This document shows, piece by piece, positions 9,049-35,742 of a stretch of DNA of 64,000 bases. Location: positions 372,001 to 436,000 of the forward strand of contig CANMPL010000002.1 in assembly GCA_947499715.1 (NCBI GenBank). The letters run 5' to 3'. The stretch is from an uncultured Paracoccaceae bacterium. GTDB lineage: Bacteria > Pseudomonadota > Alphaproteobacteria > Rhodobacterales > Rhodobacteraceae. Made by a program: the position numbers and the translations under genes. How positions within the stretch are numbered: the first letter of the stretch is position 1; each line of letters opens with the position of its first letter. Under the pieces are notes generated by a model, which saw only the letters and a program-made list of their open reading frames with translations, made no database searches and was not told the DNA's origin.

Positions 9049-9738
9049 ATGGGCCGTGAACTGACCCTTGGCAACCCCCCGATTGCGGTTGTTTTGCGTC
9101 GCTCTGCGCGGGCGCGCCAGTTGTCGCTGCGCGTGTCGCGGCTTGATGGAAAAGTCAGCCTGACATTGCCACCCCGTGCCTCTGAGCGCGAGGCGATGGC
9201 CTTTCTTGCATCGCGCGAAGAGTGGTTGCGCGGGCATCTATCGAAAGTTGCGGGCCCCGTGCGTGTTCAGGTCGGGGAAAGCATTCCGTTCCGGGGGCAA
9301 GACCTGGTGGTTGTGCGGGGCGACGTCCGCAGGCCCCGGCTCGCGGATCATCAATTGATCCTGCCCACATCTGATCGGCCTGTTGGGCCCATCGTGCAGG
9401 CCTTCTTGAAACATCATGCACGGGATCTGCTGTCGGACCGGTCTGATACATATGCAGCGGTGGTTGGCCGCCGTTACGCGCGGCTGACGCTGCGGGATAC
9501 CCGCTCGCGCTGGGGGTCATGTTCGTCCAAGGGCGGGCTAATGTATTCGTGGCGGCTTGTGATGGCGCCGCCAGAGGTGCTGGATTACGTGGCTGCCCAC
9601 GAGGTCGCGCATTTGGTTGAGATGAACCATTCGGCCGCGTTTTGGGATGTTGTGGGATCTTTGATGCCGGACTACGCGCCGCGGCGAAAATGGCTGCGCG
9701 ACCACGGGTCGGACCTGCATCGCATTCAGTTCACTTGA
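9049..9738 (+). CDS. YgjP-like metallopeptidase (DUF45, M48-type)
   Basis: This 229-aa protein has the zinc site HEVAHLVEMNHS near residue 184 followed by FWDVVGSLMPDY, as in YgjP/WLM proteins, and the conserved DTRSRWGSCSSKGGLMYSWRL preceding it. It is probably a cytosolic zinc peptidase of unknown substrate. AAGGA lies before ATG 9049. It is divergent from the TIGR02300 gene and 31 bp upstream of the GntR gene on the same strand, so the two may be co-transcribed. Confidence 0.92.
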   Translation: MGRELTLGNPPIAVVLRRSARARQLSLRVSRLDGKVSLTLPPRASEREAMAFLASREEWLRGHLSKVAGPVRVQVGESIPFRGQDLVVVRGDVRRPRLADHQLILPTSDRPVGPIVQAFLKHHARDLLSDRSDTYAAVVGRRYARLTLRDTRSRWGSCSSKGGLMYSWRLVMAPPEVLDYVAAHEVAHLVEMNHSAAFWDVVGSLMPDYAPRRKWLRDHGSDLHRIQFT

Positions 9739-9749
9739 CCGCCATAGGA

Positions 9750-9763
9750 TTTGTGATCACAAA
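9750..9763. promoter_or_regulatory. Operator candidate TTTGTGATCACAAA before gntR
   Basis: A perfect 14-bp palindrome ends six bases before the gntR start codon. The same core TGTGATCACA occurs twice before sucC and twice before sdhC. GT-N4-AC spacing fits GntR/FCD operators. It occupies the place of the ribosome binding site, so binding would block expression of gntR (autoregulation, inferred). Confidence 0.75.
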
Positions 9764-9769
9764 GCGGGC

Positions 9770-10417
9770 ATGATCCAACCGCGTGTCTCTGAAAATGTTG
9801 GCGTGGCCCATGACCGGGTCTATCGGGCCCTGCGGGCCCGGATCATTCATGGTGAAATTGCACCGGGTGCGGCATTGACGCTGCGCGGGATCGGCAAGGA
9901 ATTCAGTGTGTCGATGACCCCCGCGCGCGAGGCGGTGCGTCGGCTGGCGGCAGAAGGCGCGCTTTTCCTGTCGTCCTCGGGCCGGGTGTCGACGCCAGAA
10001 TTGTCCAACGAACGTATCGAAGAGCTGGCGACATTGCGGGCCTTGCTGGAACCAGAGCTGGCCAGCCGCGCCTTGCCTCGTGCCCACTTTGCGCTGATTG
10101 AGCGGTTGGAGACGATCAACAACGGCGTCAGTCAAATGATCGCGCGGCATGACGCGACGGGCTACATCAGGATGAACCTTGAGTTTCATCGCACGTTGTA
10201 TTTACGCGCCCAAGCCCCCGCGATGCTGGCCATGACAGAGACGGTCTGGCTGCAACTCGGTCCGACGATGCGGGCCCTTTATGGCCGCCTTAACCGTACC
10301 GAACCGCCTGCGACGCACCGCCTGATTATCTCTGCTTTGCGCGCGGGGGATGAGCCGGGTTTGCGCCTCGCGGTGCGCACCGATGCCACAAAAGGCTTGC
10401 GCTTGTTGAAGGCGTAG
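9770..10417 (+). CDS. GntR/FCD-family transcription regulator
   Basis: This 215-aa regulator has an N-terminal GntR winged helix (residues 10-75: RVYRALRARIIHGEIAPG, SMTPAREAVRRLAAEG) and a C-terminal FCD ligand-binding helical bundle. FCD metal/ligand residues are suggested by LRALLEPELA, NLEFHRTLY and THRLIISALRAGD. FCD members usually bind small organic acids. A perfect palindrome overlaps the expected Shine-Dalgarno position. The gene is convergent with lpd, the last gene of the suc cluster, with 30 bp between. Matching palindromes before sucC and sdhC make it the prime candidate for a TCA-cycle regulator. That role is inference. Confidence 0.93.
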   Translation: MIQPRVSENVGVAHDRVYRALRARIIHGEIAPGAALTLRGIGKEFSVSMTPAREAVRRLAAEGALFLSSSGRVSTPELSNERIEELATLRALLEPELASRALPRAHFALIERLETINNGVSQMIARHDATGYIRMNLEFHRTLYLRAQAPAMLAMTETVWLQLGPTMRALYGRLNRTEPPATHRLIISALRAGDEPGLRLAVRTDATKGLRLLKA

Positions 10418-10447: not shown

Positions 10448-11836
10448 TTACATGTGAATAGCGCCATCACCGCAGGCCAGTGCCGCCTCGCGCACGGCTT
10501 CCGAATAGGTTGGGTGTGCATGACAGGTGCGGGCGAGGTCTTCGGCGGCGGCACCAAATTCCATGGCGACGCAAATCTCGTGAATCAGATCGCCCGCCAT
10601 CGGGCCGATGATATGGGCTCCAAGGATGCGGTCCGTTGCCTTGTCGGCAAGGATTTTGACAAAGCCGTCGCCACTGAAATTCGCCTTTGCACGGGCGTTG
10701 CCCATGAAGCTGAACTTACCAACCTTATAAGCACGCCCTTGTTCTTTCAGGGTTTCTTCGGTCTCGCCGACGCTCGCCACCTCGGGGTGTGTATAGATCA
10801 CACCGGGGATCACGCCGTAGTTCACATGGGGGTGCTGGCCTGCGATGCCTTCGGCAACGGCCATGCCTTCATCTTCGGCCTTATGCGCAAGCATCGGCCC
10901 CGTGATCGCGTCGCCGATGGCGTATATGCCTTTGATATTGGTGGCATAATTTGCATCCGTCTTGATCTGCCCACGATCAGACATCGCAACACCCAGACCT
11001 TCAAGGCCAAGCCCGTCGGTGTAGGGTTTGCGGCCCGTGGCGACCAGGACGGTGTCAGCGGTTAGCGTCGCTTCGCTGTCGTCTTTGCGCAGCTTGTAGG
11101 TCACCGTGGCCTTGTTGTTTTTGACCGTGGTGCCCTGAACCGCGGCGCCCATGATGAACTTAAGTCCTTGCTTTTTCAGCATTCTTTGGAAGGTCTTGGC
11201 GACCTCTCCGTCTTGGCCGGGGGTGATGGCATCCATGAATTCAACCACCGTCACCTCTGACCCCAAACGGGCGTAGACCGAACCGAGCTCCAGCCCGATC
11301 ACGCCTGCGCCGATCACGACTAAGCTTTTGGGAATCTTACCTAATTCCAGCGCACCGGTTGAGGTGACGACGGTTTTCTCATCGACCTCGACACCCGGCA
11401 GGGACGAGGATTCAGACCCTGTTGCGATGACGATATGTTTGGCGTCATGGACGTCATCGCCGACCTTGACCTTGCCCGCCGCAGGGATCGAGCCCCAGCC
11501 TTTAAGCCAGTCTATCTTGTTCTTTTTAAACAAAAATTCGATGCCGCCGGTGTTCTGACTGATGGTCTTGTCCTTGTAGGCCAGCATCTGCTTCCAATCG
11601 ACAGAGGGCGCTTTGCCCTTCAGGCCCATTTCGGCAAAGTTGTGCTGAGATTCATGAAGCATTTCAGTGGCATGCAGCAAAGCCTTGGACGGGATACAGC
11701 CCACATTCAGGCAGGTGCCGCCCAGCGTTTCGCGCCCTTCGACACAGGCCACCTTCAGGCCCAATTGCGCACAACGAATGGCCGAGACATAGCCGCCGGG
11801 GCCGGAACCGATGATGATGACGTCGTAGCTGGCCAT
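10448..11836 (-). CDS. lpd: Dihydrolipoyl dehydrogenase (E3)
   Basis: The E3 component reoxidises dihydrolipoamide with NAD+ for 2-oxoglutarate dehydrogenase and probably other complexes. The 462-aa protein has the FAD motif GSGPGG near residue 10, the redox disulfide Cys42-Cys47 in [16 protein letters not shown], an NAD motif [13 protein letters not shown], and the active-site HAHPTYSE near the C-terminus. GGAGAGG fixes the start at 11836; the frame extension upstream is made of the 11-bp iterated repeat and is not coding. It ends the suc cluster. Confidence 0.97.
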
Positions 11837-11863
11837 GGGCCTCTCCTTCGTGGAATCGGGTAT

Positions 11864-11891
11864 GCACAAACCATGCACAACCCATACACAT
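11864..11891 (-). repeat. Iterated 11-bp repeat, copy 2 (two units plus partial)
   Basis: Read on the minus strand: a partial ATGTGT, then ATGGGTTGTGC (11885-11875) and ATGGTTTGTGC (11874-11864), then AT. It lies 28 bp upstream of the lpd start codon, in the gap after the MAPEG gene, so it may belong to the lpd leader or promoter. Confidence 0.8.
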
Positions 11892-11953
11892 TGTGGCAAC
11901 AAACCATGCTGCCGATTGTCCTAATGCGCGTTAACCGTACGGTGGTCGCGCGG

Positions 11954-21582: not shown

Positions 21583-22776
21583 TTACCCTTTGACCGCCTT
21601 CACGATCTTCTGCGCACCGTCTTTCAGGTCGTCGGCGGCGATCACATCAACGTCGGAGTTGTTGATGATATCTTTGCCCGCTTCGACGTTGGTCCCTTCG
21701 AGACGCACAACCAGCGGAACCTTCAGCCCCACCTCTTTCACGGCGGCAACCACGCCTTCGGCGATGACGTCGCAGCGCATGATGCCGCCAAAGATGTTCA
21801 CCAGGATGCCTTTGACGTTGGGGTCAGAGGTGATGATCTTGAAGGCTTCGGTCACTTTTTCCTTGGTCGCACCGCCGCCTACGTCAAGAAAGTTGGCAGG
21901 CTCTGCGCCATAAAGCTTGATGATGTCCATCGTGGCCATCGCAAGACCGGCGCCGTTGACCATGCAGCCAATCTCGCCATCCAGTGCGATATAGTTGAGG
22001 TCATACTTGGAGGCGGCGAGTTCCTTTGGATCTTCTTCCGTCTCATCGCGCAGGGCGGCGACATCCTGATGGCGGTAGACCGCGTTGCCATCAAACGCGA
22101 CCTTGGCGTCAAGCACCTTGAGGTCACCGCCGTCGGTGACGATCAGCGGGTTGATCTCCAGCATCTCCATGTCTTTTTCGGTAAAGGCTTTGTAAAGCTG
22201 GCCCATCAGTTTGACGCATTGCTTGACCTGATTGCCTTCCAGACCCAGGGCAAATGCCACGCGGCGGCCATGGTAGGGCTGATAGCCGGTCGCGGGATCC
22301 ACGGTGAAGTTCAGGATCTTTTCGGGGGTCGAGGCGGCGACCTCTTCAATGTCCATCCCGCCTTCGGTGGAGCAGACAAAGCCGATGCGGCTGGTTTGAC
22401 GATCAACCAAAAGCGCCAGATACATCTCAGTCTCAATGCCAGAGCCGTCTTCGATATAGATGCGGTTGACCTGCTTGCCGGCGGGGCCAGTCTGGTGGGT
22501 CACAAGGGTGCGGCCCAGCATCTTTTTGGCTTCTTGCGCGGCTTCTTCCACAGATTTGGTCAGGCGCACACCGCCTGCCTCACCGGCGTCAGCTTCCTTG
22601 AATTTGCCCTTGCCGCGTCCACCGGCGTGGATCTGCGCCTTAACCACCCACAGCGGGCCATCAAGTTCGCCAGCGGCGGTTTTGGCTTCTTCGGCGCGCA
22701 AGACCGGGCGTCCGTCGCTGACCGGTGCGCCGAAAGACTTCAATAGGGCCTTGGCCTGATACTCGTGGATGTTCAT
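21583..22776 (-). CDS. sucC: Succinyl-CoA synthetase beta subunit
   Basis: The beta subunit binds the nucleotide (ATP-grasp) and succinate. The 397-aa protein begins [19 protein letters not shown], has the ATP-grasp [28 protein letters not shown], the EINPLIVT segment and [21 protein letters not shown], and ends with the succinate/phosphate loop [20 protein letters not shown]. The start at 22776 is family-consistent; the 35-codon extension is rejected. Two TGTGATCACA boxes lie 97-127 bp upstream, and it heads the suc cluster. Confidence 0.98.
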
Positions 22777-22869: not shown

Positions 22870-22906
22870 ATTTGTGATCACACCTTAAAAAAGTGTGATC
22901 ACAAAT
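22870..22906. promoter_or_regulatory. Double operator upstream of sucC (two TGTGATCACA boxes, 21 bp apart)
   Basis: ATTTGTGATCACAC (22870-22883) and its exact reverse complement GTGTGATCACAAAT (22893-22906) flank nine bases. Cores start at 22873 and 22894, i.e. 21 bp or two helical turns apart. The same spacing is found before sdhC. The right arm touches the stop codon of the glycosyltransferase gene. As RNA it could also fold into a 14-bp hairpin, but there is no T-run after it. Confidence 0.8.
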
Positions 22907-31426: not shown

Positions 31427-31457
31427 TGTGATCACACGATTTGCGACTGTGATCACG
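31427..31457. promoter_or_regulatory. Double operator upstream of sdhC (TGTGATCACA and TGTGATCACG, 21 bp apart)
   Basis: Cores begin at 31427 and 31448, exactly 21 bp apart as at sucC; the second has one mismatch at its last base. The pair lies about 140-170 bp before the sdhC start, in the only sizeable gap before the sdh operon. Confidence 0.78.
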
Positions 31458-31597
31458 AAGCAAAGTTTTTGCGCTAACGCGGCAATTTCGCGCGGAAATT
31501 TGCCCTGCCTTAACGTGACTCTCGGAAACAGATGCGCAATAACGGGGCAAAGGTACCGGGCCAGCCAGCCCGGTATGACGCCAAGAAGGGAACTGAA

Positions 31598-31981
31598 ATG
31601 GCCGATGTGAACCGGGGTAATCGCCCTCTTTCGCCGCATGTGACGATCTATCGTCCGCAACTGACATCCGTAACATCCATCTTTACGCGCATCACCGGCA
31701 ACGCCCTGATTGTGGCCGCGCTGATGATCGTCTGGTGGTTTGTGGCCGCCGCCACCGGGCCAGAGGCGTTTGCAACCGCAAACGGATTTGTCACCTCTTG
31801 GTTTGGCGATCTGGTCATGTTCCTGTCGGTCTGGGCGGTCTGGTATCACATGCTGTTTGGGATCCGGCACCTGATCTGGGATTCGGGCCATATGCTGGAT
31901 GTCCCCCGGTCAGAGACGTTTGCGCAGGCCGCGATCATCGCCTCTGTGCTGCTCACTATCTTTACTGCAATCGTCGTCTAA
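31598..31981 (+). CDS. sdhC: Succinate dehydrogenase cytochrome b556 subunit
   Basis: A membrane anchor of complex II. The 127-aa protein begins MADVNRGNRPLSPHVTIYRPQ, the usual SdhC start where RPLSPH and IYRPQ border the quinone site, and has three hydrophobic spans. The haem-ligand His is in WYHMLFGIRHLIWDSGH. The GAAGGGAACTG before ATG 31598 sets the start; the 22-codon extension is rejected. First gene of sdhCDAB, with a double TGTGATCACA operator upstream. Confidence 0.96.
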   Translation: MADVNRGNRPLSPHVTIYRPQLTSVTSIFTRITGNALIVAALMIVWWFVAAATGPEAFATANGFVTSWFGDLVMFLSVWAVWYHMLFGIRHLIWDSGHMLDVPRSETFAQAAIIASVLLTIFTAIVV

Positions 31982-32384: not shown

Positions 32385-34190
32385 ATGGCAGCTTACGAAT
32401 ACGAAACCCATGTCTATGACGCCATTGTTGTGGGGGCTGGCGGTGCTGGTCTGCGTGCAACGCTGGGTCTGGCCGAACAGGGGTTGAAAACCGCCTGTAT
32501 CACCAAGGTGTTCCCGACCCGGTCCCATACCGTGGCCGCACAGGGCGGCATCGCGGCCTCCCTTGGCAACATGGGCCCCGATAGCTGGCAGTGGCATATG
32601 TATGACACCGTCAAAGGCTCTGACTGGTTGGGCGATACGGACGCGATGGAATACCTCGCGCGCGAAGCCCCCAAGGCGGTTTATGAACTGGAACACTACG
32701 GCGTGCCGTTTTCGCGCACCGAAGAAGGCAACATCTATCAGCGACCCTTTGGCGGCCACACGACCGAATTTGGCGAAGGCCCGCCCGTGCAGCGCACCTG
32801 TGCCGCCGCTGACCGCACCGGCCACGCAATTTTGCATACGCTTTATGGTCAAAGCCTGAAGCAAAAGGCCGAATTCTACATCGAATACTTCGCCACCGAT
32901 CTGATCATGTCCGAGGATGGGCAGTGTCAGGGTGTGGTGGCATGGAAGCTGGATGACGGCACCATGCATGTCTTCAACGCCAAGACCACGGTGCTGGCGA
33001 CCGGCGGCTATGGCCGCGCCTATTTCAGCGCCACTTCGGCCCACACCTGCACTGGTGACGGTGGCGGTATGGTGGCCCGCCAAGGCTTGCCGCTGCAGGA
33101 CATGGAGTTCGTGCAATTCCACCCCACCGGTATCTATGGTGCGGGTTGCCTTATTACCGAAGGCGCGCGTGGCGAGGGCGGCTATCTGACCAACTCCGAA
33201 GGCGAGCGTTTCATGGAACGCTATGCGCCGACCTATAAGGATCTGGCGTCGCGTGACGTGGTGTCCCGCTGCATGACGATGGAAATCCGCGAAGGCCGCG
33301 GCGTGGGCGCGCAGGGCGATCACATTCACCTGCACCTCAACCACTTGCCGCCAGAAACGCTTGATCTGCGTCTGCCAGGCATCTCCGAAAGCGCGCGCAT
33401 CTTTGCGGGCGTGGACCTTACCAAAGAACCGATCCCGGTGCTGCCGACCGTGCACTATAACATGGGCGGTATTCCGACGAATTACTGGGGCGAGGTGCTG
33501 AACCCAACCAAAGACAACCCCGATGCGGTTGTGCCCGGCCTGATGGCCGTGGGTGAGGCGGGCTGTGCCTCCGTGCACGGCGCGAACCGTCTTGGCTCTA
33601 ACAGCCTGATCGACCTGGTGGTCTTTGGCCGCGCGGCTGCGATCAAGGCGGGTGAGGTCGTGGACCCCAACGCGGCGAACCCTGTGCTGAACCAGGCGTC
33701 AGTCGATCAGGCCTTTGATCGCTTTGACACAGTGCGCCACGCCGACGGCGCACTGCCAACGGCAGAGCTGCGGTTGGAGATGCAAAAGGCGATGCAGGAA
33801 GATGCCGCCGTGTTCCGCACCGATAAGACGCTGGCCGAGGGCGTCAAAAAGATGGAAGCCATCGCTGGTAAGATGGGTGATTTGAAAGTCACCGACCGGT
33901 CGCTGGTCTGGAACTCTGACTTGATGGAAAGCCTTGAGCTCACCAACCTGATGCCCAACGCGCTGGCCACGATTGTCGGCGCAGAGGCGCGCAAGGAAAG
34001 CCGTGGTGCCCACGCGCACGAGGATTACCCAGACCGCGACGACAAAAAGTGGCGGGTCCATAGCCTCGCCAATGTTGACGGTGCCAAAACCAAACTCAGC
34101 TATCGCCCCGTGCACCTTGATCCGCTGACGACCCAGAAAGAGGGTGGGATCGACCTCAAGAAGATTGCGCCAAAGGCGCGGGTCTATTGA
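32385..34190 (+). CDS. sdhA: Succinate dehydrogenase flavoprotein subunit
   Basis: The catalytic subunit oxidises succinate to fumarate. The 601-aa protein has the FAD motif [13 protein letters not shown] near residue 16, the flavinylated His in [14 protein letters not shown], the active-site region [21 protein letters not shown], and substrate Arg/His residues in [13 protein letters not shown] and [14 protein letters not shown] lies upstream of the ATG. Its stop overlaps the next gene by one base. Confidence 0.98.
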
Positions 34191-34962: not shown

Positions 34963-35742
34963 ATGGTTCAACTGACACTTCCCAAGAACTCTCGCATGGT
35001 GACAGGCAAGACCTGGCCCAAGCCCGAGGGTGCGACCAATGTCAAAAAGGTCCAGATTTATCGCTGGAACCCTGATGACGGCAAAAACCCGTCGCTGGAT
35101 ACCTATTTTGTCGATCTCGACACCTGCGGGCCAATGATCCTGGACGCGCTGATCAAGATCAAGAATGAGATTGATCCGACCCTGACCTTCCGCCGTTCTT
35201 GCCGCGAGGGGATCTGCGGATCCTGTGCGATGAACATCGACGGGATCAACACGCTGGCCTGTATCTATGGACTTGATGAGGTGCAGGGCGATGTGAAGAT
35301 TTATCCGCTGCCGCATATGCCGGTTGTGAAGGATTTGATCCCGGATCTGACCCATTTTTACGCGCAGCACGCCAGCATCATGCCGTGGCTTGAGACCAAG
35401 ACAAATGCGCCTGCGAAAGAGTGGAAGCAATCCATTGCGGACCGTGAAAAACTGGACGGTCGTTACGAATGTATCATGTGCGCGTGTTGTTCGACCTCTT
35501 GCCCGTCCTATTGGTGGAACGGCGATCGGTATCTGGGGCCAGCGGCGCTTTTGGCAGCACATCGCTGGATTGTGGACAGCCGTGACGAGGCGACGGGCGA
35601 GCGGTTGGATGATCTGGAAGATCCGTTCAAGCTGTATCGTTGTCACACCATCATGAACTGCGCCAAGACTTGCCCCAAGGGTCTGAACCCGGCGGCGGCC
35701 ATCGCTGACATCAAGAAAAAACTGGTCGAGCGCGTGGTGTGA
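34963..35742 (+). CDS. sdhB: Succinate dehydrogenase iron-sulfur subunit
   Basis: The 259-aa protein binds three Fe-S clusters: 2Fe-2S in [15 protein letters not shown] plus a following Cys, and 4Fe-4S/3Fe-4S sites in [16 protein letters not shown] and [24 protein letters not shown] precedes the ATG. Completes sdhCDAB; two hairpins follow within 60 bp. Confidence 0.98.

Follow-up and report, generated by a model that had tools for sequence, protein, structure and literature searches.

An akgR orthologue beside lpd in an uncultured Paracoccaceae bacterium: a known TCA-cycle regulon with a probable autoregulatory operator

The stretch of DNA analysed here (the window, 64,000 nucleotides from an uncultured Paracoccaceae bacterium) carries a gene for a GntR-type regulator with an FCD domain. 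It stands between a gene that presumably encodes a YgjP/M48-like metal-dependent hydrolase and one that, by its translation, is presumably lpd (dihydrolipoamide dehydrogenase). The features of the locus are as follows.

9049 to 9738, + strand: open reading frame of the upstream neighbour, presumably a YgjP/M48-like metal-dependent hydrolase
9735 to 9740, + strand: probable -35 element TTGACC of akgR, in which the upstream gene has its TGA stop codon; putative function
9750 to 9763, unstranded: AkgR box TTTGTGATCACAAA at the probable -10 region, probably an operator for autoregulation
9758 to 9763, + strand: probable -10 element CACAAA of akgR, the right half of the box, 17 nt after TTGACn
9770 to 10417, + strand: akgR orthologue, 215 aa, GntR wHTH and FCD by Pfam, 75% identical to its R. 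sphaeroides counterpart
10448 to 11902, - strand: open reading frame, presumably lpd

The distance of 30 bp between the regulator gene and lpd given in the original prediction was confirmed; the two genes are convergent and face each other tail to tail, at the lpd stop codon. The lpd gene lies on the same strand as the suc genes, and its counterpart in R. sphaeroides is found in the same order. To describe the neighbourhood more widely we used 80 named loci (from Yoonia, Loktanella, Ruegeria, Leisingera and others), chosen as the 80 best among at least 585; this set and the genome survey described below are not independent. The ygjP-like gene adjoins akgR in 69 of these 80 loci, as it also does in R. 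sphaeroides, and lpd is found within 1 kb of akgR in 20 of the 80; some loci of the set are truncated by the ends of their contigs.

The product of the regulator gene bears an N-terminal GntR wHTH domain (E 8e-14) and a C-terminal FCD domain (E 1e-16), both exceeding the Pfam gathering scores, which bears out the predicted assignment and places the protein in the FCD family of the GntR superfamily. Its nearest solved structure by sequence is McbR (PDB 4p9f), a distant relative matched with the single sequence over residues 20-201, the wHTH and FCD region (E 4e-18); McbR is a protein of E. coli with other targets. The AlphaFold model of the akgR product has low confidence (pLDDT 68). Zinc in LldR, a metal-binding FCD protein, is bound by three histidines (PMC4746285). 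In the akgR product, residues H140 and H183 are invariant in both alignments made, and an invariant D205 stands at the likely third position, where the correspondence to the histidines of LldR is our own reading; N136 occupies the place of an aspartate in 7u5q.

Among the surveyed genomes, the one designated G051 proved to be that of R. sphaeroides, whose PuhA sequence matches it at 100%. The akgR product is 75% identical over 209 aa to its orthologue in this genome, and the runner-up homologues reach 30% in R. sphaeroides and 30% in the genome of the window, a one-to-one relationship. The R. sphaeroides orthologue lies about 0.75 kb after sdhB and, as in the window, beside a ygjP-like gene. 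It is the sole GntR-domain match between 2.224 and 2.797 Mb on its contig, with 30 such matches genome-wide. In PMC4344238, the genes of this region are numbered RSP_0967-6 (sucCD), RSP_0965-62 (2-oxoglutarate dehydrogenase), RSP_0974-6 (sdh) and RSP_0981 (a GntR gene); because the orthologue is the only GntR gene there, this numbering requires it to be RSP_0981. That source also describes RSP_0981 as predicted to control sucCD, sdh and the 2-oxoglutarate dehydrogenase genes. The R. sphaeroides GntR gene at position 2,223,051 falls within a published ChIP peak range (2,222,600-2,223,600), which Table 3 of that source assigns to RSP_0488-80 and RSP_0489.

By sequence and position, the gene in the window is akgR, the orthologue of RSP_0981, the AkgR of Rhodobacter sphaeroides. 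RSP_0981 of strain 2.4.1 is reportedly the protein that Imam, Noguera and Donohue named AkgR in mBio in 2015. A citing paper describes AkgR of R. sphaeroides as an activator whose sites include the palindrome GTGATCAC (PMC6365646). Since AkgR fits the window gene in sequence, in the common ygjP-like neighbour, in its predicted targets and in its motif, the original statement that no named regulator would fit was wrong. The regulon is real and well conserved, but it is a known one whose regulator already has a name.

The palindrome TTTGTGATCACAAA occupies 9750-9763, at the start region of akgR as had been predicted; the start codon at 9770 follows after 6 bp. Perfect 14-bp palindromes are no rarity as such: the window holds 2, against 4.9 expected from base composition. 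Matches to the TTTGTGATCACAAA 14-mer with at most 3 mismatches number 7 in the window, a count reached by 1 of 100 shuffled sequences (mean 2.24). The 10-bp core TGTGATCACA occurs in 4 copies in the window, where 0.036 are expected (Poisson P 7e-8), and in 7 copies in the 4.02-Mb genome, where 2.3 are expected. One of the seven genomic copies lies before akgR, two before sucC and one before sdhC, where a second box is one base off the exact core; the other three lie inside open reading frames elsewhere. The enrichment and conservation of the core led us to reject a chance palindrome. The recurrence of the core before sucC and sdhC supports the predicted sharing of operators by the regulator gene, suc and sdh, whose sites are listed here.

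21583 to 22776, - strand: presumably sucC (start MNIHEYQ); first gene after the tandem
22871 to 22884, unstranded: sucC-proximal AkgR box TTTGTGATCACACC, 21 bp from the distal box
22892 to 22905, unstranded: sucC-distal AkgR box AGTGTGATCACAAA
31425 to 31438, unstranded: first AkgR box of the tandem before sdhC, TTTGTGATCACACG
31446 to 31459, unstranded: second AkgR box of that tandem, ACTGTGATCACGAA, at 21 bp from the first
31515 to 31519, + strand: -35-like element GTGAC at sdh, 58 bp beyond the second octamer; putative function
31598 to 31981, + strand: sdhC (Sdh_cyt by Pfam), putative start at an inner ATG (MADVNRGN)
32385 to 34190, + strand: sdhA
34963 to 35742, + strand: sdhB

The true start of sdhC is probably the inner ATG at 31598 and not the opening of the reading frame at 31532, because the latter falls within the putative promoter. 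Both suc and sdh are preceded by exact pairs of GTGATCAC, as would be expected of operators of an AkgR orthologue. No wider regulon emerged from the exact TGTGATCACA sites of this genome, the three remaining ones all lying within long open reading frames that we take to be folC-like and selD-like, one of them at the very end of its frame. Two of these sites (L010 and L011, G000:C11:8633 and 9160) are separated by 527 bp, one inside the selD-like frame and one at its 3' end, and are probably due to chance. Among imperfect pairs at 21-bp spacing elsewhere in this genome, two that were read, having 1 and 2 mismatches, each fall inside an open reading frame.

The occurrence of the gene and its presumed operator was surveyed in 120 genomes of Rhodobacteraceae, one per genus. 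Orthologues were called at 63% identity or more, or at 48% in G033, and the copies in G027 and G091 run off the ends of their contigs; a pair was defined as two exact GTGATCAC sequences with N3-N33 between them and was searched for genome-wide, its location at suc or sdh being read in 37 genomes. By these definitions the orthologue is present in 104 of the 120 genomes and the pair in 106, and a control with the pattern written backward gave 0 in all 120. The pair is found in 103 of the 104 genomes with the orthologue versus 3 of the 16 without it (Fisher P 9e-14, ignoring kinship); a single genome has the orthologue only (G040), three have the pair only (G019, G096 and G114), and 13 have neither. 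The predicted co-occurrence of gene and box was thus seen, the pair being almost confined to carriers. That the box might be kept where the regulator is absent, which had been named as evidence against the prediction, holds for 3 of the 16 non-carriers and fails for the other 13. The assemblies of G114, G096 and G019 have completeness of 100, 77 and 91% and consist of 320, 50 and 210 contigs, respectively, and the pair in G114 and G096 is located at sdh.

Before sdhC, two boxes were found in 11 of 14 carriers examined, among them a degenerate pair 21 bp apart in G040 and an imperfect one, 19 bp apart, in G045, and no box was found in the remaining three (G030, G033 and G090). Two of 14 non-carriers (G096 and G114) have two boxes there; no sdhC was located in G021, the fifteenth non-carrier. 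Kinship was considered with an SdhA tree of 30 rows, comprising the window and 29 of 30 picked genomes, 15 of the picked being without the gene; G019 gave no match. Absence of akgR takes 7 changes on this tree, and supported branches carry at least 4 of these; the absence shows some clustering, a count as low being reached in 18 of 500 shuffles. A kinship-aware test had 4 supported independent pairs, too few for significance (median p 0.25), of which on average 3.1 changed in the same direction, 0.0 in the opposite direction and 0.9 showed no difference. In one genome, G109, a broken remnant of akgR, split over two frames, adjoins a ygjP-like gene that is intact (L325, G109:C56:32000-34500), and the genome has no exact operator pair left.

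A second protein, here called paralogue B, is about 36-44% identical to AkgR and present in many of the surveyed genomes. It could be supposed that this protein, or a CRP-like factor, is the one that binds GTGATCAC and that the box at akgR is a by-product; the prevalence of paralogue B would allow this, as would G019 and G114, which have the pair and a 36-38% homologue and no orthologue, and a Pseudomonas protein 32% identical to AkgR has been proposed to use GTGATCAC (PMC6365646). We consider such another binder very unlikely. The genome of the window is without paralogue B, its next best homologue being 30% identical, and G004, G054 and G101 have only a 34-41% homologue and no pair. Moreover, within 200 bp upstream of paralogue B, TTGATCAA was found in 14 of 18 loci read (L307-L324; intragenic control 0 of 18) and GTGATCAC in 0 of these 18. 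TTGATCAA is a different box with the GATC core in common, and because of these counts AkgR and paralogue B seem, by sequence, to have separate boxes.

The spacing of the paired boxes is strict. The genome-wide search gave at least 75 exact pairs in 37 genomes, 64 of those 75 spaced at 21 bp, which is two helical turns, 4 at 20 bp and 7 at other distances. Of the 72 that were read, 67 precede sucC (37) or sdhC (30), with a spacing of 21 bp in 63 cases and of 20 bp in the other 4; all 37 genomes have at least one pair at suc or sdh, and 30 have both. The other five pairs lie elsewhere, four with other spacings and one, at 21 bp, ahead of a fumarase-like gene. In this last case (L274, G042:C16:228050-228600) the GTGATCAC pair is followed by TTGAC and precedes a gene that, judged by eye on its N-terminal sequence only, resembles a class II fumarase gene. 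The AkgR regulon may thus extend in some genera to the next step of the TCA cycle.

Downstream of the pairs, GTGAC or TTGAC begins at a distance of 57-60 in 24 of 30 sdh sites. At suc, a T is found at 47 in 30 of 37 sites and at 48 in 29 of 37, and a -35-like pattern, which may count more than once per site (up to twice), has 18 matches at 46-48 versus at most 1 at any other position. The distance from pair to -35-like element is therefore about 47 bp at suc and about 58 bp at sdh, and the 11-bp difference amounts to one helical turn. The sdh promoter of the window fits this geometry (58), and its suc promoter is without a clear fit, having TTTAT at 40 and not at 46-48. Paired boxes placed well upstream of the -35 element, one turn apart between suc and sdh, are in the position expected of an upstream activator, and the promoter geometry is consistent with activation of the TCA-cycle genes by AkgR.

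The arrangement at akgR itself is different. Upstream sequence was available for 102 of the 104 orthologues, with start codons chosen nearest the aligned start and ATG preferred, a choice that may sharpen the distances of box and TTGAC given here. The 12-mer TTGTGATCACAA, with at most 2 mismatches and within 120 bp of the start, is found in 69 of the 102 (intragenic control 0 of 102, or 1 of 102 at 3 mismatches), most commonly beginning at -19 (37 orthologues) or -18 (15); in the named loci with upstream sequence the box is present in 61 of 79. TTGAC lies 34-36 bp upstream of the start in 75 of the 102 orthologues, which is 75 of the 88 having TTGAC 25-50 bp upstream; the 14 without it in that range comprise 2 box-bearing and 12 box-less genes. 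Where TTGAC is present, TTGTGATCACAA begins 16 bp after its start in 55 of 66 box-bearing genes. This spacing makes the right half of the box the likely -10 element, even though CACAAA in the window matches TATAAT poorly, and places the start of the mRNA likely at the ATG. A sequence resembling a Shine-Dalgarno (SD) element was found upstream of akgR in 1 of 102 orthologues. The prediction that the box covers a ribosome binding site was consequently abandoned in favour of overlap with the probable -10 element, and the akgR mRNA is probably leaderless, with transcription starting at or next to the ATG.

Overlap with the -10 element is the position expected of autorepression, and TTTGTGATCACAAA looks like a brake on the promoter of akgR that is common to many relatives. 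The palindrome might instead be no operator and owe its retention to chance or to a role as promoter sequence. Chance would suffice to produce a lone 14-bp palindrome, and 33 of the 102 orthologues, that of R. sphaeroides included, are without the box at 2 mismatches or fewer, so that autoregulation is not universal. The conservation of the box in 69 of 102 orthologues against none in the intragenic control opposes this reading, as does the retention of TTGAC at 34-36 bp in 19 of 22 box-less genes (56 of 66 box-bearing ones), which means that the akgR promoter does not need the palindrome. We regard a non-operator as distinctly unlikely and the box as a probable autoregulatory site.

Taken with the activator role and GTGATCAC motif reported for R. 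sphaeroides in the papers cited above, the orthology, sites, spacing, conservation and co-occurrence found here make it very likely that AkgR activates suc and sdh from paired upstream boxes and represses its own leaderless promoter through the single box at the -10 element. AkgR would bind as a dimer to palindromes centred on GTGATCAC, one dimer per palindrome. Two dimers would sit side by side, 21 bp or two turns apart, before sucC (followed by sucD, sucA, sucB and lpd), and two likewise before sdhC. From well upstream of the -35 element, probably by upstream contact, they would activate the section of the TCA cycle from 2-oxoglutarate to fumarate. A single dimer on the akgR box would block RNA polymerase at the -10 element and so produce negative autoregulation.

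Many FCD regulators are repressors, and by that usual logic AkgR would repress suc, sdh and itself until released by an organic acid. The box at akgR is indeed in a repressing position, but the suc and sdh pairs lie about 46-60 bp upstream of the -35-like elements and not on them, and AkgR of R. sphaeroides is termed an activator (PMC6365646); repression throughout is in our judgement unlikely. A broader proposal is that AkgR acts as a dual regulator, with the position of the operator deciding between activation and repression: paired, turn-phased boxes would activate suc and sdh, and a single -10 box would shut akgR off, in a homeostatic loop that many members of the family have and that R. 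sphaeroides, in which AkgR was discovered, has probably lost. We hold the chances of this proposal to be slightly better than even.

The known system closest to the one in the window is that of R. sphaeroides 2.4.1, where exact GTGATCAC pairs with 21-bp spacing likewise precede sucC and sdhC. It differs in that its akgR follows sdhB and lacks a box at the start of the gene, whereas akgR of the window stands beside lpd and has one. CceR is a LacI-type regulator, unlike the GntR-type AkgR. Like AkgR it acts on genes of central carbon metabolism, in Paracoccus denitrificans as well as in R. sphaeroides, and its targets in the latter include sdh and 2-oxoglutarate dehydrogenase (PMC11323563), so that AkgR need not act alone. 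In Pseudomonas simiae, the proposed GTGATCAC binder PS417_07240 is reported to be 32% identical to AkgR, but its proposed target is a deoxyribonate oxidation cluster and not the TCA cycle (PMC6365646).

A literature search for GTGATCAC together with GntR or succinate dehydrogenase returned no title describing such a motif among the matches listed, and one for GntR with Roseobacter, succinate dehydrogenase, regulon and TCA cycle returned no match. What is added here is the operator geometry, the co-occurrence of gene and pair, the probable leaderless and autorepressed akgR promoter, and a fumarase-like candidate target in one genus, parts of which may already be contained in the 2015 AkgR paper. 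The gene and its regulon now carry a name, which makes their rediscovery needless. The analysis also points to a strict operator geometry and to an autoregulatory loop, both directly testable; R. sphaeroides, lacking the box at akgR, cannot show this loop. The conservation of gene and sites indicates that control of suc and sdh by AkgR extends over about 100 genera of Rhodobacteraceae, marine roseobacters included.
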